DNA of 64,000 nucleotides, from the NCBI GenBank assembly GCA_963169195.1, contig CAUJDN010000103.1:1-64000 (forward strand). Reading direction: 5' to 3'. This document shows positions 6,286-60,975 of this stretch, in pieces. The notes beneath the pieces are model-generated. The model saw only the letters and a list, made by a program, of their open reading frames with translations, did no database searches and had not been told where the DNA came from. Every line of letters starts with the position of its first letter. Position 1 is the stretch's first letter. The position numbers and the translations under genes were made by a program. The stretch comes from Acidobacteriota bacterium (lineage in GTDB: Bacteria > Acidobacteriota > Vicinamibacteria > Vicinamibacterales > UBA2999).

Positions 6286-6291
6286 CCCCGG

Positions 6292-6326
6292 GACCCAGGA
6301 CCCAAGACCCAAGACCCAGGACCTCA
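6292..6326. repeat. Heptamer repeat GACCCAG/A in the rpsL-rpsG spacer
   Basis: Four abutting 7-mers, GACCCAG, GACCCAA, GACCCAA, GACCCAG (6292-6319), then a decayed unit GACCTCA (6320-6326). They fill most of the 52-base spacer. The last part supplies AGGA at 6326-6329, a possible weak ribosome-binding site for rpsG. Confidence 0.85.
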
Positions 6327-6811: not shown

Positions 6812-6829
6812 CGGCACGAGCGCCCCCAG

Positions 6830-6852
6830 GACCCAGGACCTCAAGACCTCAG
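6830..6852. repeat. Degenerate 7/8-mer repeat in the rpsG-fusA spacer
   Basis: One GACCCAG unit (6830-6836) followed by GACCTCA at 6837-6843 and again at 6845-6851, so the period slips from 7 to 8. The family is the same as in the rpsL-rpsG spacer. A separate GAAGGA ribosome-binding site for fusA follows at 6862-6867. Confidence 0.65.
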
Positions 6853-6870
6853 GACGACACGCGAAGGACC

Positions 6871-8982: not shown

Positions 8983-9020
8983 CGGGGAGGGCCGGTCGCG
9001 GGACCCGACGAGTCAGCCGA

Positions 9021-9048
9021 CTCCCGACTCCCGACTCCCGACTCCCGA
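9021..9048. repeat. Perfect heptamer repeat CTCCCGA x4 in the fusA-rpsJ spacer
   Basis: Four identical, abutting 7-mers CTCCCGA (9021-9027, 9028-9034, 9035-9041, 9042-9048), with a partial unit before. It sits where tuf is often found. An AAGGA ribosome-binding site for rpsJ follows at 9050-9054. Confidence 0.9.
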
Positions 9049-9060
9049 CAAGGATCAGAG

Positions 9061-10787: not shown

Positions 10788-10821
10788 GGACCCAGGACCC
10801 CAGACCCAGGACCCAGGACCC
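10788..10821. repeat. Heptamer repeat GACCCAG running into the rplW start codon
   Basis: The 36-base spacer is made of GGACCCA, an 8-mer GGACCCCA, two GACCCAG units (10803-10816) and GACCC (10817-10821). The next A is the first base of the rplW ATG. AGGA at 10815-10818, created by the unit junction, is the only visible ribosome-binding site. Confidence 0.85.
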
Positions 10822-11112
10822 ATGAAACTCACCGATGTGATTCGCCGGCCGCTCGTCACCGAGAAGACCACGCTGCTCCGCGAGGACGGCAGGACCGTGG
10901 TGTTCGAGGTGGCGCGCGCCGCCAACAAGATCGACGTCAAGCGGGCGGTCGAGAAGCTGCTCGGCGCCAAGGTCGACGGCGTCCGCACTGCGAACACGCA
11001 GGGCAAGCTGAAGCGGCAGGGCCGCTTCGTCGGACGGCGCTCCGACTGGAAGAAGGCCTACGTCACGCTGAAGGCCGGCCAGAAGCTGCCGGACTTCCTG
11101 GAAGGGGCATAA
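10822..11112 (+). CDS. rplW: 50S ribosomal protein L23
   Basis: L23, 96 residues, located at the exit of the peptide tunnel and docking site for trigger factor and SRP. The family pattern [13 protein letters not shown]...[20 protein letters not shown] is clear. The start codon directly abuts the spacer repeat. Three bases separate its stop from rplB. Confidence 0.95.
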
Positions 11113-23114: not shown

Positions 23115-23295
23115 GGTGAGGCCGGGACCGGGGTCCCGGCGCTCCCGATCGCGCACGGAGCGCCGGGGCTTCAGCCCCGGCGGATTCCGCCAGCCCACGG
23201 CCCGCAGCTCGTCAGACCTGCAGCGGGAGGCCGGGGGCCGTAACCCGCAGGTCTGGAGGCCGGGCTGCCGGCCCGTTTGGCGAAAGGACATCACG
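23115..23295. other. rpsD-rpoA spacer with a chain of hairpins
   Basis: This 181-base spacer is unusually long for the alpha operon. It contains, in order: GGGACC/GGTCCC (23124-23137), a perfect 10-bp stem CCGGCGCTCC/GGAGCGCCGG (23136-23166), a 9-bp stem CGCCGGGGC-TTCA-GCCCCGGCG (23161-23182), and CAGACCTGC/GCAGGTCTG (23213-23255). The second and third share bases, so they are mutually exclusive. They could modulate readthrough or processing before rpoA. No gene is seen. An AAAGGA ribosome-binding site for rpoA lies at 23283-23288. Confidence 0.6.
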
Positions 23296-24276
23296 ATGCT
23301 CTGGAAAGGTTTTCAGCGCCCCAAGCGCCTCGACTTCGAACGCGAGACGCTGACCGACCGGTTCGGGCGCTTCTACGCGCAGCCGTTCGAACGCGGATTC
23401 GGCACCACGGTGGGCAACGCCCTCCGCCGCGTGCTGCTCTCGTCCATCGAGGGCGCGGCCATCACGGCCGTGCAGATCGACGGCGTGCTCCACGAATTCT
23501 CGCCCATCAAGGGCGTGGTCGAGGATGCGACCGACATCATCCTCAACCTCAAGCAGCTGCCGCTCAAGTGCCACGTGGACCACACCAAGACGCTGACCGT
23601 GCGCGTGGACAAGCCGGGCCCGGTGCGCGCCAGGGACATCGAGGTGGACCAGGACGTGGAGATCCTCGAGCCCGACGCCCACATCGCCACCGTGTCGGAG
23701 GGCGGCAAGCTCCACATGCAGCTCCGCGTGAAGCGCGGGCGCGGCTACATCGCGGCCGATCGCAACTTCGACGAGGATCTCGGCATCGGCTGGATCCCGA
23801 TCGACTCGGTGCACTCGCCCGTGAAGAAGGTCAACTACCTCGTCGAGTCGGCGCGCGTCGGGCAGGCGACCGACTACGACAAGCTCACCCTCGAGGTCTG
23901 GACCAACGGATCGGTCACGCCGGGCGACGCGGTGTCGCTGGCGGCCAAGCTCGTGCGCGACCATCTCAACATCTTCATCAACCTCGAAGACGAGGACGAG
24001 GACGAGGCGGACGTGGCCACCGAACCGGCGCGCCTGGGCGTCGCCAACGAGCACCTCGACAAGAGTGTCGAGGAGCTCGAGCTCTCGGTGCGGTCGTACA
24101 ACTGCCTGAAGAACGCCAACATCCGCACGATTCGTGAGCTCGTGCAGAAGAGCGAGACCGACATGCTGAAGACGAAGAACTTCGGCCGGAAGTCGCTCAA
24201 CGAGATCAAGGAGATCCTGCAGACGATGGGCCTCAGTCTCGGCATGAAGCTGGACCAGCCCTCGGCGGCGGAGTAG
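23296..24276 (+). CDS. rpoA: RNA polymerase alpha subunit
   Basis: Alpha subunit, 326 residues, dimerises to nucleate RNA polymerase. The N-terminal domain has [28 protein letters not shown], followed by an acidic linker ([13 protein letters not shown]) and the C-terminal domain, [30 protein letters not shown], which binds UP elements and activators. The ATG at 23296 with AAAGGA upstream gives the family N-terminus [12 protein letters not shown]; longer frames run into the spacer hairpins. Confidence 0.97.
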
Positions 24277-24298
24277 CTCCGGTCAGGGAACAGACGCC

Positions 24299-24910
24299 AT
24301 GCGCCACCGTAATGCACACCGGAAGCTCGGCCGGGTCACCGAGCACCGCATCGCGCTCCTTCGCAACCAGGCGACGGCGCTGCTGATGCACGAGCGCATC
24401 GAGACGACGGTGCCGAAGGCCAAGGAGCTGCGGCCGTTCGTCGAGCGCATCATCACCATCGCCAAGCGCGGCGTGAAGGCGGCCGACCCGAAGGGCAGGA
24501 CCCTCTCGGCCCGGCGCCTCGTGATGCGCGACGTCCACAACGAGGACGTGGTCACCAAGCTCTTCGACGAGCTGGCCCCGCGGTTCGAGTCGCGGCCGGG
24601 CGGCTATACGCGCATCCTCAAGCTGGGGCACCGGCGCGGCGATGCCGCCGAGGTCGCGCAGATCGAGCTCGTCGGCAGCGAGTTCGACCCGAAGAAGGCC
24701 GAGGCCGAGCGCAAGGCTTCGGAGGAGGCCGCCCAGGCGGAAGGCGCCAAGACGCAGAAGAGCGTGGGCGAGCGGCTCCGCTCCGCGGCCGAGCGGCTGC
24801 GAGGCGGCAAGAAGGCCAAGGGCGAGGCCGGCGCAAAGTCCAAGGCGAGCCGCCCCGCCCGGGGAACCGCCAAGAAGACGACGACACCGCGCAAGGCCGG
24901 CGGGTCGTAG
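24299..24910 (+). CDS. rplQ: 50S ribosomal protein L17 with long basic tail
   Basis: L17, 203 residues. The core, about residues 1-122, is typical ([62 protein letters not shown]). A tail of about 80 residues rich in Ala, Lys, Glu and Arg follows, roughly 75 residues longer than E. coli L17. Extended L17 tails exist in other phyla; the role is unknown. It ends the ribosomal superoperon. Confidence 0.95.
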
Positions 24911-24936
24911 GCCACAAACGGCAGCTTCCGGAGTCC

Positions 24937-24977
24937 TGAGGTTCCGGGGTTCGGGGTTCTCCCGGCCCGGAGCCTCA
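24937..24977 (+). terminator. Hairpin after the ribosomal superoperon
   Basis: TGAGGTTCCGGG (24937-24948) pairs with CCCGGAGCCTCA (24966-24977), 12 bp with one G-U, loop of 17. A second stem CCGGCC/GGCCGG is at 24995-25010. No T-run follows, so this would be a stem-only or Rho-assisted end. The remaining bases up to 25141 hold only a weak extended -10-like TGCCATACT (25063-25071). Confidence 0.45.
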
Positions 24978-25141
24978 GACCCGTTCCACCCTGTCCGGCC
25001 GCACGGCCGGCCCTCCTCGTCCGTCCGTCTCACCCGAATTCACTCGTGCGTCACGCGCGGGATGCCATACTGAAGACGCCCGTGCGCGGGCCATCGGGCA
25101 CGTCGCGTCCAGGAGCCGCCACCACGCGTCTCAAGAGTCAG

Positions 25142-26986
25142 ATGTCCCACGCGATTCCCCGCCTGCTGCCGGCGGTCATGGCAGCCTCGTTCGTCGCCGT
25201 CCTGGCCGGCCGCCAGTCGTCCCGGCCGGCGGAGCAGCCCGAGCAGCCGATTTTCCGGGCCACGGTGGATCTGGTCCGTGTGGACGTCTCGGTCACCGGG
25301 AGAGATGACGAGCCGGTCACCGATCTGCAAGCCTCCGACTTCATCGTCACCGAGGATGACGTGCCGCAGACGGTGGAGACGGTGCAATTCGTCCGGATCG
25401 ACGGGCAGCGGTACGAGGACACGGGCGAGTCGCTGGAGATTCGCGGGCCCTCGCAGGCCCGCGTCGAGGCCGCCCGGGAGGACGTGCGGCTCTTCGCCGT
25501 CCTGCTGGACGACTACCACATCGACCGCCACCCGACCATCACCATTCCGTTGAGGCGGGCGCTCGAGAGTTTCGTGGAGCAGCTGCAGCCGACCGACCTG
25601 GTGGCGATCATGGACCCGCTGACCACCCTCGACAGCCTCCGGTTCACGCGCAACAAGGCCGAGCTGCTGGAACGCGTCCGGGCGTTCGAAGGCCGGCGCG
25701 GGTTGCTGTTTCCGGTCAGGAGCCCCGTCGAGGAGGCCCAGGTGTCCCAGCGCAATGTCTTCGAGCTGCGCGCGGCGGTGACGCTGTCGGCCCTCGAGGC
25801 GGTGGCGACGCACCTCGGCGGACTTCGCGAGGGCCGGAAGTCCGTCCTGTTCGTCAGCCAGGGGCCCCCGGTGGGCACGCCGGGCAGCGTGGTCTACCCG
25901 CGCCTGGACGCCGCACTGCAGGCCGCCAATCGCGGCAACGTCACCGTCCACGTGCTCGACCCGCGCCCGCTCGGCTCGGCGCCGTTCGGCGGGGCCGAGG
26001 CGCTGCGCCGGCTGTCGGCGGAAACCGGCGGGCGCGCCATCGTGAACACGAACAACCCGGAAGCCGGCCTCGGGCAGGTTTTTGCCGACGCAAGCGCGTA
26101 CTACCTCGTCGGCTACTCGCCGAGCCGCCAGCTGGCCGACGGGAAGTTTCACAAGATCAACGTGGGCGTGAAGCGATCGGGCGTCCGCGTGGCGGCGCGC
26201 CGCGGGTACTGGGCCCCCACCGAGGCCGAGCTCAACCCGGAGCCGCCACCACCACCCGACCTGCCGCTCAACGACGCACTGCGGGCGCTGGTCGAGCCCG
26301 CAGACGGCCGGCAGATCGAGCTCTGGGTGGGCAGCGAGCCAGCCGGCGGCGCGCGGACGTCGCTGCGCGTCACGTGGGAGCTGTCGAGCCGGCTGACGGA
26401 TGGCGAGGCGCCGGCGACCGTCGAGGTCGAGCCCGTCACACGCACCGGCACCTCGCTGGGCGACGCACAGCGCATCGCGGCGCCGCCGAAGGCCGGCGCT
26501 GTTCCGACGATCGCGTCGTTCGCCCTCGATCCCGGGCCCGCGGCGCTGCGACTCACGGTACGCACCGCGGGCGGTGCCGTCGTGGACCGCTGGACCCAGA
26601 CACTGGTCGTGCCGGACTACGCCGGCGCGGCGCTGACGCTCGGCACGCCGCGCGTGTACCGCACACGAACCCTGGCCGAGACTCGTGCATTCAACGCCGA
26701 TCCGGCGCCGACGCCCTCAGCCTCCCGCCGCTTCCGGCGAACCGACCGCCTGGTGATCGACGTCCCCTACCAGGCCACCACGGGCACGCCCCAGGTCCGC
26801 GCGCAGCTGACCAACAGGGACGGACAGCCCCTGGCGCCGCTGACCGTCAGCACGCCAACTGAGGGGGTGGCTCGCGTGGTCATGCCGCTGGCCAGCCTGG
26901 CGCCGAGCACGTACACGGTGCGCGTGGAGGTCTCGGCCGGCGATGCCGAAGGGACGCAGGTCGTGGCGTTCACGGTGTCGCAGTGA
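25142..26986 (+). CDS. Secreted VWFA-related protein (acidobacterial family)
   Basis: A 614-residue protein with a signal peptide (hydrophobic stretch about residues 8-22) and no lipobox cysteine. Residues 35-80 (FRATVDLVRVDVSVTGRDDEPVTDLQASDFIVTED) match the start of the VWFA-related Acidobacterial domain (TIGR03436), followed by a von Willebrand A-like fold with RLFAVLLDDYHI where a MIDAS site would sit. After a PEPPPPPD linker, the C-terminal 250 residues look like beta-sandwich repeats. Such proteins are numerous in Acidobacteriota and are presumed to act in the periplasm or at the cell surface; no function is established. The ATG at 25142 was chosen because it starts the signal peptide. 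Confidence 0.82.
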   Translation: MSHAIPRLLPAVMAASFVAVLAGRQSSRPAEQPEQPIFRATVDLVRVDVSVTGRDDEPVTDLQASDFIVTEDDVPQTVETVQFVRIDGQRYEDTGESLEIRGPSQARVEAAREDVRLFAVLLDDYHIDRHPTITIPLRRALESFVEQLQPTDLVAIMDPLTTLDSLRFTRNKAELLERVRAFEGRRGLLFPVRSPVEEAQVSQRNVFELRAAVTLSALEAVATHLGGLREGRKSVLFVSQGPPVGTPGSVVYPRLDAALQAANRGNVTVHVLDPRPLGSAPFGGAEALRRLSAETGGRAIVNTNNPEAGLGQVFADASAYYLVGYSPSRQLADGKFHKINVGVKRSGVRVAARRGYWAPTEAELNPEPPPPPDLPLNDALRALVEPADGRQIELWVGSEPAGGARTSLRVTWELSSRLTDGEAPATVEVEPVTRTGTSLGDAQRIAAPPKAGAVPTIASFALDPGPAALRLTVRTAGGAVVDRWTQTLVVPDYAGAALTLGTPRVYRTRTLAETRAFNADPAPTPSASRRFRRTDRLVIDVPYQATTGTPQVRAQLTNRDGQPLAPLTVSTPTEGVARVVMPLASLAPSTYTVRVEVSAGDAEGTQVVAFTVSQ

Positions 26987-27351
26987 CGGGAGGCCTTCGG
27001 TAGGCCGCGCTCCGCGCGGTGAGCCTCTGGTGGGCGGCGCTCCGCGCCGTGGGCCTTCTGATGTGGAGATTCGCGGGTTGGGTGCCGCATGACCATGGTG
27101 CGTCGGGAGCGGTTCCGAGGGTTCTCCTTTGTCCGTCGGCCGGCCCGGTGACCGGGTGAGCGCCGCCCACACAAAGCCCGTCAACGCACAGGCCACCCCG
27201 TGACGATGCGTGGCTTCGGCGCGCCGCGTTGGCGCTGGCGCAAGGCGTGGCCCACGGAGGGGTAGTGCCGACGTGCCAGGCGGCCTCGTGACGCCCGGCG
27301 CCGGTGAGTCCGAGAGCCCTGCCCAGAGGCCTCTGCGTCATCTGCGGCCCA
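26987..27351. other. Convergent intergenic region with TCC-loop hairpin repeats
   Basis: The VWFA gene (+) and the EF-G-like gene (-) end here. At 26990-27060 a unit of 30-31 bases is repeated 2.3 times. Each full copy holds a perfect stem with TCC loop: CCGCGC-TCC-GCGCGG (27005-27019) and CGGCGC-TCC-GCGCCG (27035-27049). The second matches the reverse complement of 760-777 at 17 of 18 bases. The remaining 290 bases contain no gene I can support; open frames there lack codon character and ribosome-binding sites. Confidence 0.6.
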
Positions 27352-29445
27352 TCACGCCTCCGGCTCGGCGGCCTGTCCGCGCTCGACCTTGGCCGCGGCG
27401 ATGATCTTCTGCTGCTGGTGCGACGGGACCTCGTCGTAATGCGAGTACTCCATGTGGTAGGATCCGCGGCCGCCGGTCACCGACGTGAGGTGCTGCTCGT
27501 AGGTCAGCATCTCGGCCATCGGCACCTGCGCCTTGATGACCGTCATCTGGCCGCGTGGTTCCATGCCCGAGATCCGGCCGCGGCGGCCGTTCAGGTCGCC
27601 CATGAGGTCCCCGGCGTAGTCGCTGGGCGCATAGACCTCGACGTTCATGATGGGCTCGAGCAGCGTGGGCCGGGCCTTCGACATCCCGTCCTTGAACGCC
27701 AGCCAGCCGGCGGTCTTGAATGACAGCTCGTTCGAATCCACGTCGTGGTACTGCCCGTCGGTGAGCACCACGCGGAAGTCCACGACCGGGTAGCCGGCCA
27801 GGTAGCCGCGAAGGCGCGACTCCTGGATGCCCTTTTCCACGGCGGGGATGAACTGCCGCGGGATGGCCCCGCCGAAGATCTCGTCCACGAACTCGAAGTC
27901 GCTGCCGCGCGGGAGCGGCTCCATGCGGATCTTGCAGTCGCCGAACTGGCCGTGGCCGCCGGTCTGCTTCTTGTGGCGCCCATGAGCCTCGACGCGTGCG
28001 GTGATGGTCTCCCGGTACGGGATGCGCGGCGGCTTGAGGTTGACCTCCACGCCGAAGCGGCGCTTCAGCTTCGCCACCGTGACCTCGATGTGCAGCTGGC
28101 CCTGGCCGGCCAGCAGCAACTCGTGCGTCTGCGGGTCGCGCGCGTAGCGGATGGTGCCGTCCTCCTCTTCGAGCCGGTGCATCGCGGTGCTGATCTTGTC
28201 CTCATCGCCGCGGCTCTTGGGTTCGATGGCGTAGGACAGGACGGGCTCGGGGAAGCTGATCGGCGGGAACGCGACGCCCGCGGCCTTGTCGGCCAGCGTG
28301 TCGTTGGTACGGGTGTCCTTCAGCTTGGCCACGGCGCCCAGGTCCCCCGCCTTGATCTCCGGCACGGCCACCTGGGTCTTGCCCTGCAGCACGGCCAGGT
28401 GACCCAGGCGCTCCTGTGTGCCGCGCGTGAGATTCGTGACCGTGGAGTCGGACTTGAGCGCGCCCTGGTAGACGCGGAACAGCGTGATGCGGCCGGCGAA
28501 CTGATCGGCGACGGTCTTCCACACGAACGCGGCGTACGGGGCCTTTTCGTCGGTGCCGCGCGTCACACCCTGCCCGTCGCTCACGGCCTTGAACGGGCGC
28601 TCCGCCGGTGACGGCGTCCAAGCCAGGAGGGCATCGAGCAGGGGCTGCGTGCCGACGTTCTGGAGGCCCGACGTGCACACCAGCGGGAAGATCCGCGCGT
28701 CGGCCGTGGCCTTGCGGAGGCCCGACGCCAGCTCCTCGCTGGTGAGCGTGCCGGCCTCGAAGAAGTGCTCCATGAGCCCCTCGTCGGCCTCCGCCACCAT
28801 CTCGATCAGGGCCTCCCGCGCGGCCGCGACCTCGGCTTCCATCGCGCCCGGCACGGGGCCCTCCGTGACGCGGCTGGACCCGTCGGCCGGGAACGTGAAC
28901 GCCTTCAGGCCGACGAGATCCACCACGCCCGTGAAGTGCTTTTCCTCGCCGATGGGCAGCTGGATGGGGACGATGGCGCGCCCGAGGGACTGGCGCAGCG
29001 ACTCGAGCGTGCGGTCGAGAGATGCGCGATCGCGGTCCAGGCGATTGACACACACGAGACGGGGCAGCGCCAGTTCGTCGGCGGCGTGCCAGGCCTTTTC
29101 GGTCTGCACCTCGACGCCCGCCACCGCGTCCACCACCACCAGGGCGGCATCGGCCACGTGCAGCGCCGCCCGCGTGTCGGCGAAGAAGTTCCCGAACCCG
29201 GGCGTGTCGATGAGGTTGACCTTGGTCTTGTTCCACTCGGCGTGCGCCAGGCTGGCGCCGAGCGTGTGCTTGCGGGCGATTTCCTCTTCGTCGTAATCGG
29301 TGACCGTCGTGCCATCGTCCACCAGGCCGAGCCGGTTGACCATGCCGGCCGCGAACAACAGCGCAGACACCAGCTGCGTCTTCCCGCATCCGCCGTGGCC
29401 AACCACGGCCACGTTGCGGATGCTGGCAGCGTCGTAAACCTTCAT
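27352..29445 (-). CDS. EF-G-like translation GTPase with altered GTPase motifs
   Basis: A 697-residue paralogue of EF-G with all five domains. The G domain departs from fusA at every catalytic motif: the P-loop is GHGGCGKT (16-23) instead of AHIDAGKT, switch II is DTPGF (80-84), so the catalytic histidine is Phe, and the guanine motif is NRLD (134-137). Domain IV retains KKQTGGHGQFGDCKIRMEPL. EF-G-like families of this type occur in several phyla and are often of unknown function or specialised in one of the two EF-G roles. It lies far from the str operon, behind the MacB-like genes. A TATGAT -10 box is 46 bases before the start, and GGGGAGG is at the ribosome-binding position. Confidence 0.88.
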   Translation of the reverse strand: MKVYDAASIRNVAVVGHGGCGKTQLVSALLFAAGMVNRLGLVDDGTTVTDYDEEEIARKHTLGASLAHAEWNKTKVNLIDTPGFGNFFADTRAALHVADAALVVVDAVAGVEVQTEKAWHAADELALPRLVCVNRLDRDRASLDRTLESLRQSLGRAIVPIQLPIGEEKHFTGVVDLVGLKAFTFPADGSSRVTEGPVPGAMEAEVAAAREALIEMVAEADEGLMEHFFEAGTLTSEELASGLRKATADARIFPLVCTSGLQNVGTQPLLDALLAWTPSPAERPFKAVSDGQGVTRGTDEKAPYAAFVWKTVADQFAGRITLFRVYQGALKSDSTVTNLTRGTQERLGHLAVLQGKTQVAVPEIKAGDLGAVAKLKDTRTNDTLADKAAGVAFPPISFPEPVLSYAIEPKSRGDEDKISTAMHRLEEEDGTIRYARDPQTHELLLAGQGQLHIEVTVAKLKRRFGVEVNLKPPRIPYRETITARVEAHGRHKKQTGGHGQFGDCKIRMEPLPRGSDFEFVDEIFGGAIPRQFIPAVEKGIQESRLRGYLAGYPVVDFRVVLTDGQYHDVDSNELSFKTAGWLAFKDGMSKARPTLLEPIMNVEVYAPSDYAGDLMGDLNGRRGRISGMEPRGQMTVIKAQVPMAEMLTYEQHLTSVTGGRGSYHMEYSHYDEVPSHQQQKIIAAAKVERGQAAEPEA

Positions 29446-55278: not shown

Positions 55279-56859
55279 GTGAACCGGCGGGCGGACTTCG
55301 TCATCATCGGCAGCGGCATCGCCGGCCTGCGTGCCGCCGTCGATCTGGCGGCCCGTGGTGACGTCGTGCTGCTGACCAAGGCCGATCCCACCGAGAGCAA
55401 CACCGGCTACGCGCAGGGCGGCATCGCCGCCGCGGTGGGCCCCGACGATCATCCCGATCTCCACTTCGCCGACACCATGGCCGCCGGCGACGGCCTCTGT
55501 GCGGCGGCGGCCGTGCGCGTCCTGGTGGACGAGGGACCGCGATACGTGCGGGAACTGACCGAGTGGGGCGTGCGGTTCGATCGCTCTCCCGACGGTGCCA
55601 TTGCCCTCGCGCGCGAAGCCGCGCACGCCGTGAGGCGGGTGCTGCACGCCGCCGATGCCACGGGCCGCGAAATCGGCCGCGCGCTCTGGAACAAGGCGCG
55701 ACAGGCCGGCCGCATCGAGGTGCTCAACCACACCCGCGCCGTCGCGCTCATCGTCGAGGACGGCGCCTGCGCAGGCGTCCGCTATGTCCGCGCTGGAGGC
55801 GGCCGGGAGCATGGCGGGGAGGTACGCGCGCGGGGCCTGCTGCTGGCGACCGGCGGAGCGGGCCAGGTGTTCAGCGACACGACCAACCCGCCGATTGCCA
55901 CCGGAGACGGGGTCTGTCTCGCCTGGCAGGCCGGTGCCCGCGTGGCCGACCTCGAGTTCGTCCAGTTCCACCCGACCGCCCTCAACGTGCCTGGCTCGCC
56001 ACGCGTGTTGCTCTCCGAGGCGCTGCGCGGCGAGGGTGCGCGGCTGGTGAACGTCGCCGGTGAACGGTTCACCGGACGCTACGAGCCGGCAGGCGACCTG
56101 GCGTCGCGCGACCGCGTCTCGCGGGCCATCGTGCGCGAGGTGGCCCGGACGGGCCAGCCGGTATTCCTGTCGCTGCAGCACCTGGACGCGACCACGGTGC
56201 ACGCGCGGTTCCCGACCGCGTCGGCCGCGTGCCGTGCCGTGGGCCTGGACCTGGCGCGGGACCGCATCCCGGTCGGTCCGGCCGCGCACTACGTCATGGG
56301 CGGCGTGGAGACCGACCTGTGGGGACGCACCACGTTGCCGGGACTCTTCGCGGCCGGTGAGGTCGCCTGCACCGGCGTGCACGGCGCCAACCGGCTCGCC
56401 AGCAACTCGCTGCTCGAGGGGTTGGTGTTCGGGGCGCGTGCCGCGGCGGCCATGCAGGAGCGGCCGTACGCCGGCGCCCTGGCGGCGCAGGTTCGTGACT
56501 GGACCGACGCTCCCGCAGACGTGCTCGGCGATCCGGCCGGCCCTGGCGCACCGGGCGAGGACGAGATCCGCCGCTTGATGTGGGATGCGGTCGGCCTCGT
56601 GCGTGACGGCCGCGGCCTCGAGCAGGCCGTCACGACCCTCTCATCCGCGATCGCGACGCTCGACACGCCCCCTCCAGACGGCGCGTCGGAGGCCGACTGG
56701 CGGCGGCGGAGCCTCGTGACCGTCGGCTGGCTCATCGCCCGCGCCGCCCTCCGGCGGGCCGAGTCGCGCGGCGGCCACTTCCGCGCGGACTTCCCCCAGC
56801 GTGACGATGTACACTGGTCGGCTCATATCGTGGAGCGGAGCCGGCACCGAAGCTTATGA
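55279..56859 (+). CDS. nadB: L-aspartate oxidase
   Basis: NadB, 526 residues, FAD enzyme oxidising L-aspartate to iminoaspartate for NAD synthesis. N-terminal FAD motif VIIGSGIAGLRAAVDLA; NTGYAQGGIAAAVG; EFVQFHPTAL; HYVMGGVETDLWGRTTLPGLFAAGEVACTGVHGANRLASNSLLEGLVFG; and the helical C-terminal domain. GTG start. nadA and nadC are not in the window. The stop overlaps proS by four bases. Confidence 0.95.
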   Translation: MNRRADFVIIGSGIAGLRAAVDLAARGDVVLLTKADPTESNTGYAQGGIAAAVGPDDHPDLHFADTMAAGDGLCAAAAVRVLVDEGPRYVRELTEWGVRFDRSPDGAIALAREAAHAVRRVLHAADATGREIGRALWNKARQAGRIEVLNHTRAVALIVEDGACAGVRYVRAGGGREHGGEVRARGLLLATGGAGQVFSDTTNPPIATGDGVCLAWQAGARVADLEFVQFHPTALNVPGSPRVLLSEALRGEGARLVNVAGERFTGRYEPAGDLASRDRVSRAIVREVARTGQPVFLSLQHLDATTVHARFPTASAACRAVGLDLARDRIPVGPAAHYVMGGVETDLWGRTTLPGLFAAGEVACTGVHGANRLASNSLLEGLVFGARAAAAMQERPYAGALAAQVRDWTDAPADVLGDPAGPGAPGEDEIRRLMWDAVGLVRDGRGLEQAVTTLSSAIATLDTPPPDGASEADWRRRSLVTVGWLIARAALRRAESRGGHFRADFPQRDDVHWSAHIVERSRHRSL

Positions 56860-58322
56860 GCAACAACCAAGGCAAGAGCGGAGAGGCGTTCATCAAGGAG
56901 ATCACGCCCCAGACCGAGGACTTTTCACGCTGGTACCTGGACGTCGTGCGCAAGGCGGAACTGGCCGACTACTCGCCCGTCAAGGGCTGCATGGTCATCC
57001 GGCCCTACGGGTACGCCATCTGGGAGCTCATCCAGCGCCAGCTGGACGATCGATTCAAGGCGACCGGGCACGTCAACGCCTACTTCCCGCTCTTCATCCC
57101 CGAGGGCCTCCTCCTGAGGGAGGCCGAGCACGTCGAGGGCTTTGCGCCGCAGGTGGCCTGGGTCACGAAAGGCGGGACCGAGGACCTCGAGGAGAAGCTC
57201 ATCGTCCGGCCGACGTCCGAGACGATCTTCGGCGTCATGTACCAGAAGTGGATCCAGTCGTGGCGCGACCTGCCGGTGCTCATCAACCAGTGGGCGAACG
57301 TGGTGCGCTGGGAAAAGGTGACGCGGCCCTTCCTGCGGACCACCGAGTTCCTCTGGCAGGAAGGGCACACGGCCCACGAGACGGCCGAGGAGGCGCAGGA
57401 GGAGACGCTCAAGATTCTGGCGCTCTACAAGGAGTTCTGCGAGAACGTGCTCGCCATGCCGGTCGTCGATGGGCAGAAGAGCGAGAGCGAGAAGTTCGCG
57501 GGCGCGTCGAAGACCTACTCCATCGAGGCTCTCATGGGCGACGGCCGCGCGCTGCAGGCCGGCACCTCGCACGACCTCGGGCAGAACTTCGCCAAGGCGT
57601 TCGAGATCCAGTTCCAGGGACGCGACAAGACGCTGCAGTACGCCTGGACCACGTCGTGGGGCGTCTCGACGCGGCTGGTCGGCGGCGTCATCATGACGCA
57701 CGGCGACGACAGCGGGCTCATCCTGCCGCCCCGCGTGGCCCCCTGGCAGGTGGTCATCGTGCCGATTCCACGAGGCAACTGGAAGGAGACGGTGCTTCCG
57801 AAGTGCGAGGCGATCCGCGACCAGCTGAAGGCGGCCGGCATCCGCGTGAAGCTCGACGCCGACGACAGCAATACGCCGGGGTGGAAGTTCTCGGAGTACG
57901 AGATGCGCGGCGTGCCGCTCAGGCTGGAGATTGGCCCGAAGGACATCGAGAAGTCGTCGGTGTTCGCCGCCAGGCGCGACACGCGTGCCAAGCAGGCGCT
58001 GCCCATGGAGGGGCTCGCGGCCACGGTCACCGCGCTCCTCGATGAGATCCAGGCGGCGCTGCTCGCGCGCGCCCGGGCATTTCGCGACAGCCACACCTCG
58101 GCGACGACGAGCTACGAGGAGTTCAAGGCTGTCATGGAGGGTCGCCCGGGCTTCGTCCAGTCGCCCTGGTGCGGCGACGCCCAGTGCGAGGCCGACATCA
58201 AGTCGGAGACGCAGGCGACCATCCGGAACATCCCGTTCGGATTCGAGGCCGCGCCATCGGCGCCCTGCATCAAGTGTGGCCGCCCGGCAGTGGCGACGCC
58301 GTGGTTTGCGAAGGCGTACTGA
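56856..58322 (+). CDS. proS: Prolyl-tRNA synthetase, eukaryote/archaeal-type
   Basis: ProRS of the short class (ProS type 3), 488 residues: no editing insertion between motifs 2 and 3, and a C-terminal zinc-binding-like domain (CGDAQCEAD...CIKCGRPA) ending in KAY, the typical terminal tyrosine. Motif 2 is seen in NVVRWEKVTRPFLRTTEFLWQEGHTAH, motif 3 in the TTSWGVSTRLVGGVIMTHGDD segment. It is the only ProRS in view. Start by ATGA overlap with nadB. Confidence 0.95.
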   Translation: MSNNQGKSGEAFIKEITPQTEDFSRWYLDVVRKAELADYSPVKGCMVIRPYGYAIWELIQRQLDDRFKATGHVNAYFPLFIPEGLLLREAEHVEGFAPQVAWVTKGGTEDLEEKLIVRPTSETIFGVMYQKWIQSWRDLPVLINQWANVVRWEKVTRPFLRTTEFLWQEGHTAHETAEEAQEETLKILALYKEFCENVLAMPVVDGQKSESEKFAGASKTYSIEALMGDGRALQAGTSHDLGQNFAKAFEIQFQGRDKTLQYAWTTSWGVSTRLVGGVIMTHGDDSGLILPPRVAPWQVVIVPIPRGNWKETVLPKCEAIRDQLKAAGIRVKLDADDSNTPGWKFSEYEMRGVPLRLEIGPKDIEKSSVFAARRDTRAKQALPMEGLAATVTALLDEIQAALLARARAFRDSHTSATTSYEEFKAVMEGRPGFVQSPWCGDAQCEADIKSETQATIRNIPFGFEAAPSAPCIKCGRPAVATPWFAKAY

Positions 58323-58369
58323 CCCACGACCCAAGACCCAAGTCCCAAGACCCAAGTCCCAAGACCCAA
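58321..58369. repeat. Heptamer repeat GACCCAA/GTCCCAA, seven copies, after proS
   Basis: Seven abutting 7-mers: GACCCAC, then GACCCAA at 58328, 58335, 58349 and 58363, alternating with GTCCCAA at 58342 and 58356. The first unit overlaps the proS stop codon. It is the same family as the GACCCAG/A array between rpsL and rpsG, 52 kb away, and lies just before the terminator stem. Confidence 0.9.
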
Positions 58370-58375
58370 GACAAA

Positions 58376-58407
58376 AAGGGCGGGCCCCCTTCAGGGAGCC
58401 CGCCCTT
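58376..58407. terminator. Bidirectional terminator between proS and the OmpA-type gene
   Basis: A 14-base arm (58376-58389, starting AAGGGCGGGC) pairs with 58394-58407 (ending CCCGCCCTT) with one mismatch and a TTCA loop. A-run before (58373-58377) and TTCTT after give T-runs on both strands. This is the clearest intrinsic terminator in the window. Confidence 0.85.
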
Positions 58408-58429
58408 CTTCGTCTCGCTGATGCTCCGC

Positions 58430-60067
58430 CTACTGCAGGCGGACCGTCAAGGCGGCGCGACGGTTCAGGCGGCGCGTCTCCTCGCGGCTGTTGTCGTGCT
58501 TCGGACGTTCCTCGCCGTAGCTGACGGTCTGCAGACGATCCGCGCTGACGCCGCGGCCAGTGAGGTAGTCGCGCACGGCCGCCGCGCGACGCTCGCCGAG
58601 GGCGAGGTTGTACTCGGTCGTGCCGATGTTGCAGGTGTGGCCTTCGACCGTGAGTCTGAGCGTGCGATCCTCGGTCATGGCTTTGATCGCGTCATCCAGG
58701 ACGCGCGTGGCTTCCGGCCGAAGCGAGTAGCGGTCGAAGTCGAAGTGCACGTCCTCGAACGTGTACTCCTTGCGCGGCGGCTGCGTGCACTGGATTGTCA
58801 CCGTATCGCTCGCCGTGCCGCCCTTGCCATCGTTCACCGTCACGGTGACGGGCACGGCGCCGGGCTGCGCCGGGCACGTGAACTGCGTCTGCCGGTCTGC
58901 CGCATTGGCGAACGTTCCCGTCGGGGCGGTCCACCGGTAGCTGAGCGTGTCGCCGTCCGGATCGTTGGCGTCGGCCGTGACGGTGGAGTTCTGGCCCACC
59001 TGGACCGTGCAGGGCTCGCAGCGTGCCTTCACCGTCGGGGGACGGTTCGCGGGCGGTGGCGGCGGTGGCGGTGGCGGTGGTGCGGGCGGCGGCGGTGGTG
59101 CCCAGTAGCGCACGCCAGGGTGGTAGCCCAGGCGCACCTGGAAGCCCAGGCGATCGCCGCCGTTGCTGGTGAAGGCGCTGATGCCCTGGCGCTTGATGTG
59201 GCTCAGACCGACCGTGCCGCCCGCGCCCGCGTAGAAGCCGTTGGCGCCGTGGTACTGCACGCCCAGGAACACGTCGGCGGGACGATCCACGTCCCACGAG
59301 GTCGGCGGACCGCCGATGACCGCGATCTGCGGCCCCGTGAACGTGACGGTGTTGTCGAAGTAGTACTCGCCCGAGAGCTCGCCGAACATCTTGAGGCGGG
59401 AGCGGCTCGGGAAGCCGAGACCCACGCCATACCGGAAGCCGTGGCTCAGCTCGTACTCGTCGGGGCTGGACCGGAAGCGCAGGCCACCGTAACCGGCCAG
59501 GTCGACCATCGATCCGATCTCACGGCTCAGGATGCCGTCGAGGATGACGTCGGGCTTGCCCGTGCCGAGCCCGTCGTCGGAGCTGGCCGTGGGAACCTTG
59601 ACGGCGGCGCGTACCGCGAAGGCCACGCCGTTGTTCGTGGCCTGCGAGACCACGTTGAACTTCGCCCCCACGGTGATGTCACCGAATCCGGTCCGCCAGC
59701 CGTCGTTGACGGGGTAATCCATCGGCTGGCCGCCTTCCGCGACCGGCCGCCGATCGGCGTCGATACGCCGCTGCACGGCGACGGCGCCGAACAGCTCGAT
59801 ACGGTCCGTGGCTCCGAACGCGAACATCCCGCTGAAGTCCGAGATGTCCGAGAAGCCCTCCGAGCGGTCGAAGTTGATGCGGGCCGCCATCCCAGACACC
59901 CTGCCCTTGGGGAGCGTTTCACCCAGGGGCACGAACCAGAGGCCGGTGTCGCCGATGATGGTGCTGCTCGCGGGGCGCGTTTCCTGGTCCGCGGACTGCG
60001 CCCACCCAGGAGCAGTCGCCACCAGGCTGATTGCCACGCATGTGGCCAAGCCGCGAAGGATACTCAT
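58430..60067 (-). CDS. OmpA-family outer-membrane protein with PKD-like domain
   Basis: A 545-residue protein. Signal peptide (1-24), a beta-barrel of about 300 residues, a proline-only linker with more than a dozen Pro residues, a PKD/Ig-like domain (NRPPTVKARCEPCTVQVGQNSTVTADANDPDGDTLSYRW) with several cysteines, then the OmpA C-terminal peptidoglycan-binding domain (EDVHFDFDRYSLRPEATRVL; NLALGERRAAAVRDYL). It anchors the outer membrane to the cell wall. The start was chosen at 60067 where a promoter abuts the ATG and the signal peptide begins. Confidence 0.88.
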   Translation of the reverse strand: MSILRGLATCVAISLVATAPGWAQSADQETRPASSTIIGDTGLWFVPLGETLPKGRVSGMAARINFDRSEGFSDISDFSGMFAFGATDRIELFGAVAVQRRIDADRRPVAEGGQPMDYPVNDGWRTGFGDITVGAKFNVVSQATNNGVAFAVRAAVKVPTASSDDGLGTGKPDVILDGILSREIGSMVDLAGYGGLRFRSSPDEYELSHGFRYGVGLGFPSRSRLKMFGELSGEYYFDNTVTFTGPQIAVIGGPPTSWDVDRPADVFLGVQYHGANGFYAGAGGTVGLSHIKRQGISAFTSNGGDRLGFQVRLGYHPGVRYWAPPPPPAPPPPPPPPPPANRPPTVKARCEPCTVQVGQNSTVTADANDPDGDTLSYRWTAPTGTFANAADRQTQFTCPAQPGAVPVTVTVNDGKGGTASDTVTIQCTQPPRKEYTFEDVHFDFDRYSLRPEATRVLDDAIKAMTEDRTLRLTVEGHTCNIGTTEYNLALGERRAAAVRDYLTGRGVSADRLQTVSYGEERPKHDNSREETRRLNRRAALTVRLQ

Positions 60068-60073
60068 AGGCCG

Positions 60074-60103
60074 ATGATAAGGCCCGCAATCGCGGGAAGT
60101 CAA
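60074..60103 (-). promoter_or_regulatory. Strong leaderless promoter of the OmpA-type gene
   Basis: On the minus strand: TTGACT (60098-60103), spacer 18, TATCAT (60074-60079), then six bases to the ATG at 60067. The spacer holds the inverted repeat CCCGC/GCGGG (60083-60096). A near-consensus promoter with this spacing places +1 on the A of the start codon. Confidence 0.75.
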
Positions 60104-60117
60104 ACACAGTCGAGACT

Positions 60118-60975
60118 TTACGGGGACGTCTCCCCTTCGTCCATCTTTTTGGATTTTCCGAAGAGCCACGCCACCAGGATACCCAGCAGATAGAGCAGGA
60201 TCATCGGCGCCGCCATCAGGGTCTGGACGACCATGCTGCCATCAGGGGTGACCACGGCGGCGACCACGAAGATGAGGAGGACGGCGTACTTGATGTTCCT
60301 GAGCAGGAAGCCCGCCGTGACGATGCCCAGCCTGGCCAGCACGAACATCAGCACCGGCATCTGGAAGACCAGCCCCATCGCGAGCAGCAGCTTCACGTAC
60401 AGGCCGAACACCGGGTCGATGCGGGGAGTGAATTCGATGAACTCGTTGGTGAAGCCCGCGAAGAACCGCCAGGCGGCGGGGAACAGCACGTAGTGCGCGA
60501 AGGCGGCGCCCGCGATGAAGAGGGTCGACGAGGAGACAACGAAGGGGATGGCGAGCTTCTTCTCGCGCGCGTAGAGGCCGGGTGCGATGAACAGCCAGAC
60601 CTGCAGCATCACGTACGGCGACGAGATGAGCAGCCCCGCGACGGCCGCGATCTTGATGTAGAGGAAGAACCCTTCACCCGGCTCGGTGTAAATAAGTCTT
60701 CCGCCCGGCACGTCGGCGACGAGGCGCGCGTACACGAACGCGACGATGCGCTCGATGAAACCGAAGGCGGCGAGGAATCCGACCAGGAGCGCGACGACGG
60801 CGTGGGTGATGCGGCGGCGGAGCTCGTCGAGGTGCTCGAGGAACGTCATCCGCCCGTCGAGCGGGTCCTCCTCGTCACCGAACGGTGAGCTTGCGTCACC
60901 GCGCTCCGGGGCGTAGGGCTGAGGCGACTCCTCGTCCCGCCGCGCGGGGCTGTTGGGGAACGGCACCAGCGCCAT
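60118..60975 (-). CDS. tatC: Sec-independent protein translocase TatC
   Basis: TatC, 285 residues, binds twin-arginine signal peptides in the inner membrane. Core from MTFLEHLDELRRRI with six transmembrane helices, and the conserved segment PYVMLQVWLFIAPGLYAREKK and QMPVLMFVLARLGIV. An N-terminal cytoplasmic extension of 42 residues, rich in Pro, Asp and Glu, precedes the core; I kept the upstream ATG because the family often has such tails, but the ATG at 60849 is possible. Nine bases after tatA. Confidence 0.95.
   Translation of the reverse strand: MALVPFPNSPARRDEESPQPYAPERGDASSPFGDEEDPLDGRMTFLEHLDELRRRITHAVVALLVGFLAAFGFIERIVAFVYARLVADVPGGRLIYTEPGEGFFLYIKIAAVAGLLISSPYVMLQVWLFIAPGLYAREKKLAIPFVVSSSTLFIAGAAFAHYVLFPAAWRFFAGFTNEFIEFTPRIDPVFGLYVKLLLAMGLVFQMPVLMFVLARLGIVTAGFLLRNIKYAVLLIFVVAAVVTPDGSMVVQTLMAAPMILLYLLGILVAWLFGKSKKMDEGETSP

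Follow-up and report, generated by a model that had tools for sequence, protein, structure and literature searches.

Intergenic heptamer repeats are known from Xanthomonas, Nostoc and Beggiatoaceae, and the array that we describe here fits this class. According to the available portion of Rehm et al. 2015 (PMC4692102), the GGGAATC and GGGGA(C/T)T heptads of Xanthomonas and Nostoc form G-quadruplexes (G4) in vitro and have an unknown function, and a shared function of their flanking genes was tested for. The accessible text of MacGregor 2015 (PMC4679880) places TAACTGA direct repeats in Beggiatoaceae, some Cyanobacteria and Bacteroidetes. As described in the available parts of these two papers, Mrazek et al. 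2007 found heptamers to be the commonest long unit in many genomes, and polymerase slippage was proposed. When we searched 5.39 million open-access papers for five exact repeat strings, the sole match was a plant EST paper, and no dedicated study of heptad repeats in Acidobacteria was among the matches listed.

The array lies in a stretch of 64,000 nucleotides (the window) from an Acidobacteriota draft genome, G000 (5.0 Mb, 135 contigs, 97% complete). When EF-G of the window was set against 16 named genomes, the seven highest bit scores (63-68% identity) went to genomes labelled Acidobacteria, Acidobacteriota or Terriglobia, apart from one labelled Actinomycetota whose scaffold name is Acidobacteria. 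Genes were called with our own codon-usage script rather than a standard annotator.

A heptad array between proS and a hairpin

Direct reading of the + strand gives seven heptads followed by a partial unit, in the order GACCCAC, GACCCAA, GACCCAA, GTCCCAA, GACCCAA, GTCCCAA, GACCCAA and then GAC. TRF reports the same interval, with a period of 7, 7.4 copies, 88% matches and a score of 83. The array and its neighbours are as follows.

56856-58322, + strand: proS, prolyl-tRNA synthetase (Pfam ProRS-C_1, HGTP_anticodon and tRNA-synt_2b)
58321-58372, + strand: GACCCAA/GTCCCAA heptad array, its first unit overlapping the proS stop (direct reading, TRF and shuffles)
58376-58407, no strand assigned: GC-rich hairpin (predicted fold and pattern scan)
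58430-60169, - strand: convergent gene with OmpA and PKD/Big_9 domains (Pfam)

The first heptad shares its GA with the proS stop codon TGA (58320-58322), and five A lie directly 3' of the array, followed by the strong hairpin. Direct reading, TRF and the hairpin fold thus bear out the original prediction, made from the sequence alone, of a seven-copy array between the proS stop and a terminator. Of the predicted extent, 58321-58375, the start inside the stop codon stands, whereas the end had taken in three bases of the A run. The further suggestion of a 14-base super-period, left by duplication of a two-unit block, did not hold up: the second bases of the units run A A A T A T A, and chance alone gives a pair of T at this spacing in 5 of 21 placements, so that the super-period is not significant. 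The array itself is real and far beyond chance. With up to 2 mismatches allowed, GWCCCAAGWCCCAA matches 14 times in the window, where 100 shuffles gave 0.77 matches on average and never more than 4, so that this locus has the several head-to-tail 7-nt units, beyond chance, of an intergenic heptameric repeat.

The predicted fold of 58320-58415 has an energy of -34.2 kcal/mol (z -4.5), with the hairpin at 58376-58407. Read on the - strand, which faces the OmpA-type gene, the hairpin is followed by TTTTT; its counterpart on the + strand is a weaker TTCTT. The terminator pattern scan reported a terminator on the - strand only, with a shorter stem at 58375-58392. The array RNA is predicted to be nearly unpaired, its centroid having no pairs, and the array therefore lacks the palindromic unit of REP/RAYT elements. 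Scans of the window matched no Rfam family and found no tRNA. The array probably does little more than lengthen the spacer between stop codon and terminator, with little or no specific function.

Five further arrays, found by TRF and placed by Pfam matches of the flanking genes, cluster in gaps of the str/S10 region.

6287-6323, + strand: GACCCAG/GACCCAA array, rpsL-rpsG gap
6827-6855, + strand: CAGGACCT/CAAGACCT octad-type array, rpsG-fusA gap
9017-9049, + strand: GACTCCC array, fusA-rpsJ gap
10788-10822, + strand: GGACCCA array, rplD-rplW gap, reaching into the rplW start codon
11953-11996, + strand: GATCCCT array, rplB-rpsS gap

The window also holds a 15-nt tandem repeat, GCACGGGCGTTCGAA, with 4.4 copies in a convergent gap (577-642), and a dispersed repeat of about 60 bp with a GC-rich palindrome (23121-23183), which looks REP-like and has short matches at many places in the congeners G001 and G004.

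GACCCAA arrays across the genome

Counts of 14-mers, of doublets, of CCTARGTCCTARGTCCTA and of three-unit arrays in the phylum, here and below, are whole-genome counts. A 464 kb sample of G000 comprises the window and four contigs that carry GACCCAA matches; its GACCCAA density is biased upward because the contigs were chosen in this way.

The genome-wide search called for with the original prediction revealed further copies. With one mismatch allowed, the 14-mer GACCCAAGACCCAA matches 56 times in G000, against 4 matches for the reversed pattern, and these 56 matches merge into 22 arrays; the sister genome G004 has 35. None of the 57 arrays lies inside a called gene, in genomes whose DNA is about 90% coding, and they occupy 55 gaps. 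GACCCAA is therefore over-represented in intergenic DNA at many loci, as in described intergenic heptameric repeats. Looser patterns do enter genes on occasion (one of seven matches in the G000 sample and one of two in G003). GACCCAA arrays occur at both 5' and 3' sites and, as predicted, are not confined to ribosomal genes or to 5' positions. Because further copies exist, none of the 57 is genic and both ends of genes are used, neither outcome that would have spoken against the prediction (copies restricted to the window, or random placement that includes genes) was observed.

By gap class, 40 of the 57 arrays are co-directional, 9 convergent and 6 divergent, and 2 lie at contig edges. The 40 co-directional arrays are a median of 50 nt from the stop codon and 40.5 nt from the next start (p 0.37), and thus do not show the position just upstream of start codons that characterizes TAACTGA. 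Their C-rich strand is the sense strand in 26 of 40 cases (p 0.08). This strand bias, together with the nearly unstructured RNA predicted at proS, would suit a 3'-UTR element, in which a C-rich, G-poor and mostly unpaired RNA serves as a Rho-loading or protein-binding stretch before the terminator. Such a role is nevertheless highly unlikely: the C-rich strand is antisense in 14 of the 40 arrays, a further 6 arrays occupy divergent gaps, the bias pooled across families, looser patterns included, is 38 of 64 (p 0.17), and a hairpin is already present at proS. Two congeners without an array at this site, G001 and G002, keep a GC-rich hairpin there (by eye).

Two units are the commonest copy number (28 arrays), with a steady fall to eight (one array) and no peak at four among the 57; in these counts, runs of fewer than two units are invisible and composite arrays are counted short. 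A four-unit preference is accordingly rejected. These numbers bear on the possibility of a G-quadruplex in the complementary (GGGTCTT)n strand that would act on transcription or replication, an idea raised for GGGAATC of Xanthomonas. The proS array could form one in principle, as all seven of its units hold CCC and the - strand therefore has seven G-tracts, with 4-nt loops. A G4 motif is present in 34 of the 57 arrays when 10 nt are added on each side, and 30 of the 83 G4 motifs in the 464 kb sample fall in the roughly 10% of DNA that is intergenic. However, 23 of the 57 arrays lack the motif, the copy numbers fall from two without a mode at four, unlike those of Xanthomonas in the available text of PMC4692102, and other words of the genus (CCTARGT, AAGTGAG and AATCGTC) have no G-tracts. 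We consider a quadruplex element unlikely.

A mobile element with shared flanks was also rejected: when the sequences beside the 57 arrays were compared by eye, they had little in common except further words from the same vocabulary. The exception is a pair of G000 arrays, on contigs C119 and C2, that are followed by the same sequence, probably because the gene is present twice or because the draft contains overlapping strains.

Several words in one genome

The positional claim of the original prediction stood and its two-unit duplication did not. It was also incomplete, as GACCCAA is one of several intergenic words of 7-9 nt in G000. We scored local periods in gaps of at least 25 nt from the 464 kb sample (score threshold of 10), with shuffled gaps as the control. 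A period of 7 was found in 15 of 249 gaps, 8 in 12 and 9 in 7, against none in the shuffled gaps for each, and a period of 10 in 11 gaps against one. In the same sample, neither lag 7 nor lag 8 rose above expectation in the bulk autocorrelation of all intergenic DNA (z 0.7 and 1.0).

Octads of the AGAACCCC/AGAACCTC type outnumber GACCCAA in G000, with 473 exact doublets against 56 fourteen-mers for which a mismatch was allowed. Some arrays of G004 are composites of heptads and octads, for example AAGACCTC-AAGACCCC-AAGACCC. Octads lie between convergent genes in 7 of 19 cases (G000 and G004 together), compared with 57 of 375 gaps (p 0.02); this apparent enrichment may reflect either tolerance where no promoter lies, or function. 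Units made up of a single purine block and a single pyrimidine block are commoner than expected (33 of 51, where permutation gives 13.5; p 0.05 when tested by family), a pattern that plain slippage does not predict and that is suggestive only.

GACTCCC-type arrays are found inside called genes in three of the six arrays sampled. One of these genes encodes a DNA polymerase III alpha type protein (Pfam), in which the array reads in frame as RESGAGSRES; the other two arrays are in one called gene without a Pfam match. Both genes lie on contig C88 of G000, at about 23424-28759 (L167 3424-8759, - strand), with the gene lacking a Pfam match upstream. We take the polymerase gene to be DnaE2-like, and its upstream neighbour is presumably ImuB-like, judged by its position. 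An error-prone polymerase is a candidate agent of repeat turnover.

Opposite-strand partners seen for 19 of 24 CCTARGW arrays proved to be an artefact, as a pattern this loose picks up a single array on each of its strands. The gap-class counts from this pattern were doubled and were not used; the stricter CCTARGTCCTARGTCCTA pattern is unaffected.

Private vocabularies among congeners

Each array-rich genome has its own small set of words, and the same site can carry a different word in a relative. AGAACCYC doublets number 473 in G000 and 460 in G004, which the proS tree resolves as sisters, and are absent from the other 57 of 59 genomes. The reversed octad pattern (AAGACYCC), which resembles another word of both genomes, has 24 matches in G000 and 141 in G004. 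GGGAGRC doublets number 442 in G003, against 1 in G000, 8 in G004, 0 in G001, 0 in G002 and 4 in G005, and CCTARGTCCTARGTCCTA (CCTARGT type) has 170 matches in G003 and none in ten other genomes. In samples of gaps of at least 20 nt from this one genus, arrays of 7-9-mers are present in 28 of 262 gaps in G000, 20 of 113 in G004, 30 of 97 in G003, 2 of 79 in G001 and 0 of 99 in G002, with shuffled controls giving one gap in G000 and none in the others. No intergenic array was found in 200 kb of G002. The congener genomes are drafts, and that of G004 is 87% complete.

Individual gaps show the same replacement. The proS gap has GACCCAA in G000 and G004, differently arranged in G004, and a CCAGCCCT-type 8-mer array in G003, with no array in G001 or G002; by eye, the more distant proS loci include a heptad-like run in G052 and a longer repeat in G008. 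Between rpsL and rpsG we found GACCCAA in G000, CCAGACCT in G003, GAGCCTA in G001 and no array in G002. No match to rpsG was found in the G004 draft, which seems to lack the str operon. Between rplC and rplD, G000 has 81 nt, with weak repeats of period 9, compared with 6-9 nt in three congeners. Eight distinct array sites of G004 could be paired with the G000 sequence compared, and by eye six bear arrays in both genomes with other copy numbers, a comparison that leans towards sharing because much of the compared G000 sequence was taken around its own arrays. At proS and at other orthologous gaps of G000 and G004, array length thus varies between relatives, as in known intergenic heptameric repeats. 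Replacement of one word by another between congeners was not found in the available portions of PMC4692102 or PMC4679880.

In two other genomes, the rpsL-rpsG and rpsG-fusA gaps of L219 (G045) and the rpsG-fusA gap of L224 (G029) have heptad-like arrays followed by a near-reverse-complement run (by eye), and these gaps could form a long hairpin.

Genome-private words that recur at many gaps would be explained if each species had its own protein or small RNA that binds the arrays by sequence, as has been suggested for TAACTGA in Beggiatoaceae. Neither the start side nor the stop side is preferred among the 40 co-directional arrays, however, and several unrelated words and unit lengths coexist within one genome; we regard this analogy as quite unlikely to apply.

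Distribution in the phylum

Three-unit GACCCAA arrays are present in 13 of 396 genomes of the phylum, as are arrays of the reversed heptad AACCCAG. GACCCAA is therefore not a conserved signal, and a conserved phylum-wide motif is rejected. The total number of matches is higher for GACCCAA (241 against 103), mostly owing to one genus. Two genomes of genus g122, in the same phylum and not in the same class (G172 and G227), have 135 and 40 three-unit matches, probably through independent spread of the same word far from the family of the window.

Across phyla, 82 exact arrays at 80 loci, among at least 113 stretches, fall 43 inside and 39 outside a longest-ORF layout. This division is crude: none of the six frames of the heptad contains a stop, and two G004 arrays placed in gaps by the codon-based caller were scored as inside. 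In AT-rich Kordia, among the loci listed, 11 of 11 GACCCAA arrays are outside this crude layout (L040, L045, L048, L054, L065-L067, L092, L100, L105 and L108).

Proposed origin and turnover of the arrays

We favour, with a probability of about 0.6, the reading that the proS array is a fast-turnover, largely neutral intergenic repeat that grew by slippage after its word had spread within the genome. A word would become established at many gaps of one genome, either through site-to-site copying or because it was seeded again and again. Each local copy would then grow, shrink and mutate by replication slippage, as the copy-number differences between the sister genomes suggest, and arrays would persist mainly where the reading frame stays intact, in gaps and occasionally inside genes. 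The arrays themselves would be nearly neutral. With the runs mostly confined to gaps, and with other words or none in the corresponding gaps of related species, the array resembles rapidly evolving spacer DNA of a familiar type more than it does a conserved control signal.

Slippage by itself leaves unexplained why a single word turns up in gap after gap while a related species uses a different one. This distribution requires either site-to-site copying or selection that favours a particular word in each species. One conceivable source of copying is a mobile carrier, either a reverse transcriptase or a REP-associated tyrosine transposase (RAYT). The Y1_Tnp domain (PF01797) was found in each of the five array-bearing genomes tested, and the two array-poor genomes gave no match (Fisher p 0.048, uncorrected for kinship and genome size). 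Other repeats lie near the 5' side at 2 of 10 Y1_Tnp loci (a 9-mer in G000 and a 12-mer at its G004 counterpart), and at 3 of the 10 there are heptad arrays at a distance of between 250 nt and 2 kb. None of the 10 loci examined, of 24 matches, has a heptad or octad array within 250 nt, and these repeats do not flank the transposase gene as in REP/RAYT systems; the association may therefore reflect genome size. Several Y1_Tnp loci are flanked by palindromes of their own (by eye). The reverse transcriptase domain RVT_1 (PF00078) has no match in G000, G002, G003, G004, G005 or G028 and one match in the array-poor G001 (drafts 87-100% complete). A carrier of either kind is very improbable.

An active, trans-acting process might instead write one or a few words of 7-9 nt into about 10-30% of the gaps of a genome and swap words between sisters without a recognisable reverse transcriptase, the words spreading by site-to-site copying and not by independent slippage. 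We hold this broader proposal to be possible, if doubtful.

On its own the proS array is ordinary for its kind, and it is the genome-private vocabularies that deserve attention. The contrast between congeners, from 0 of 99 to 30 of 97 gaps and with differing words, could matter: it opens the old question of why bacteria have heptamer repeats to a test, in which close relatives that carry arrays and close relatives that lack them are compared for a gene that differs.

Comparison with known heptamer repeats

As far as the available text of PMC4692102 goes, the arrays of this genus resemble the heptads of Xanthomonas and Nostoc in being tandem and genome-wide, in having a C/G tract and in being mostly intergenic, often near gene ends, with few in genes. 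They differ in their words, in the lack of a four-unit preference and in the presence of 8- and 9-mers besides 7-mers. As to G4-capable G-tracts, the picture here is mixed: a G4 motif is present in 34 of 57 arrays and the proS sequence has seven G-tracts, and other words of the genus lack G-tracts.

TAACTGA, in the accessible part of PMC4679880, is similar in that its intergenic heptads are patchy across phyla and also occur in ribosomal operons, and in that some genomes have it mixed with other heptamers. In its main host, however, TAACTGA lies mostly just upstream of start codons, whereas here the stop and start sides are used about equally. Finally, the work of Mrazek et al. 2007, as far as the accessible accounts of it go, was a survey of many genomes, whereas ours is a comparison of congeners.
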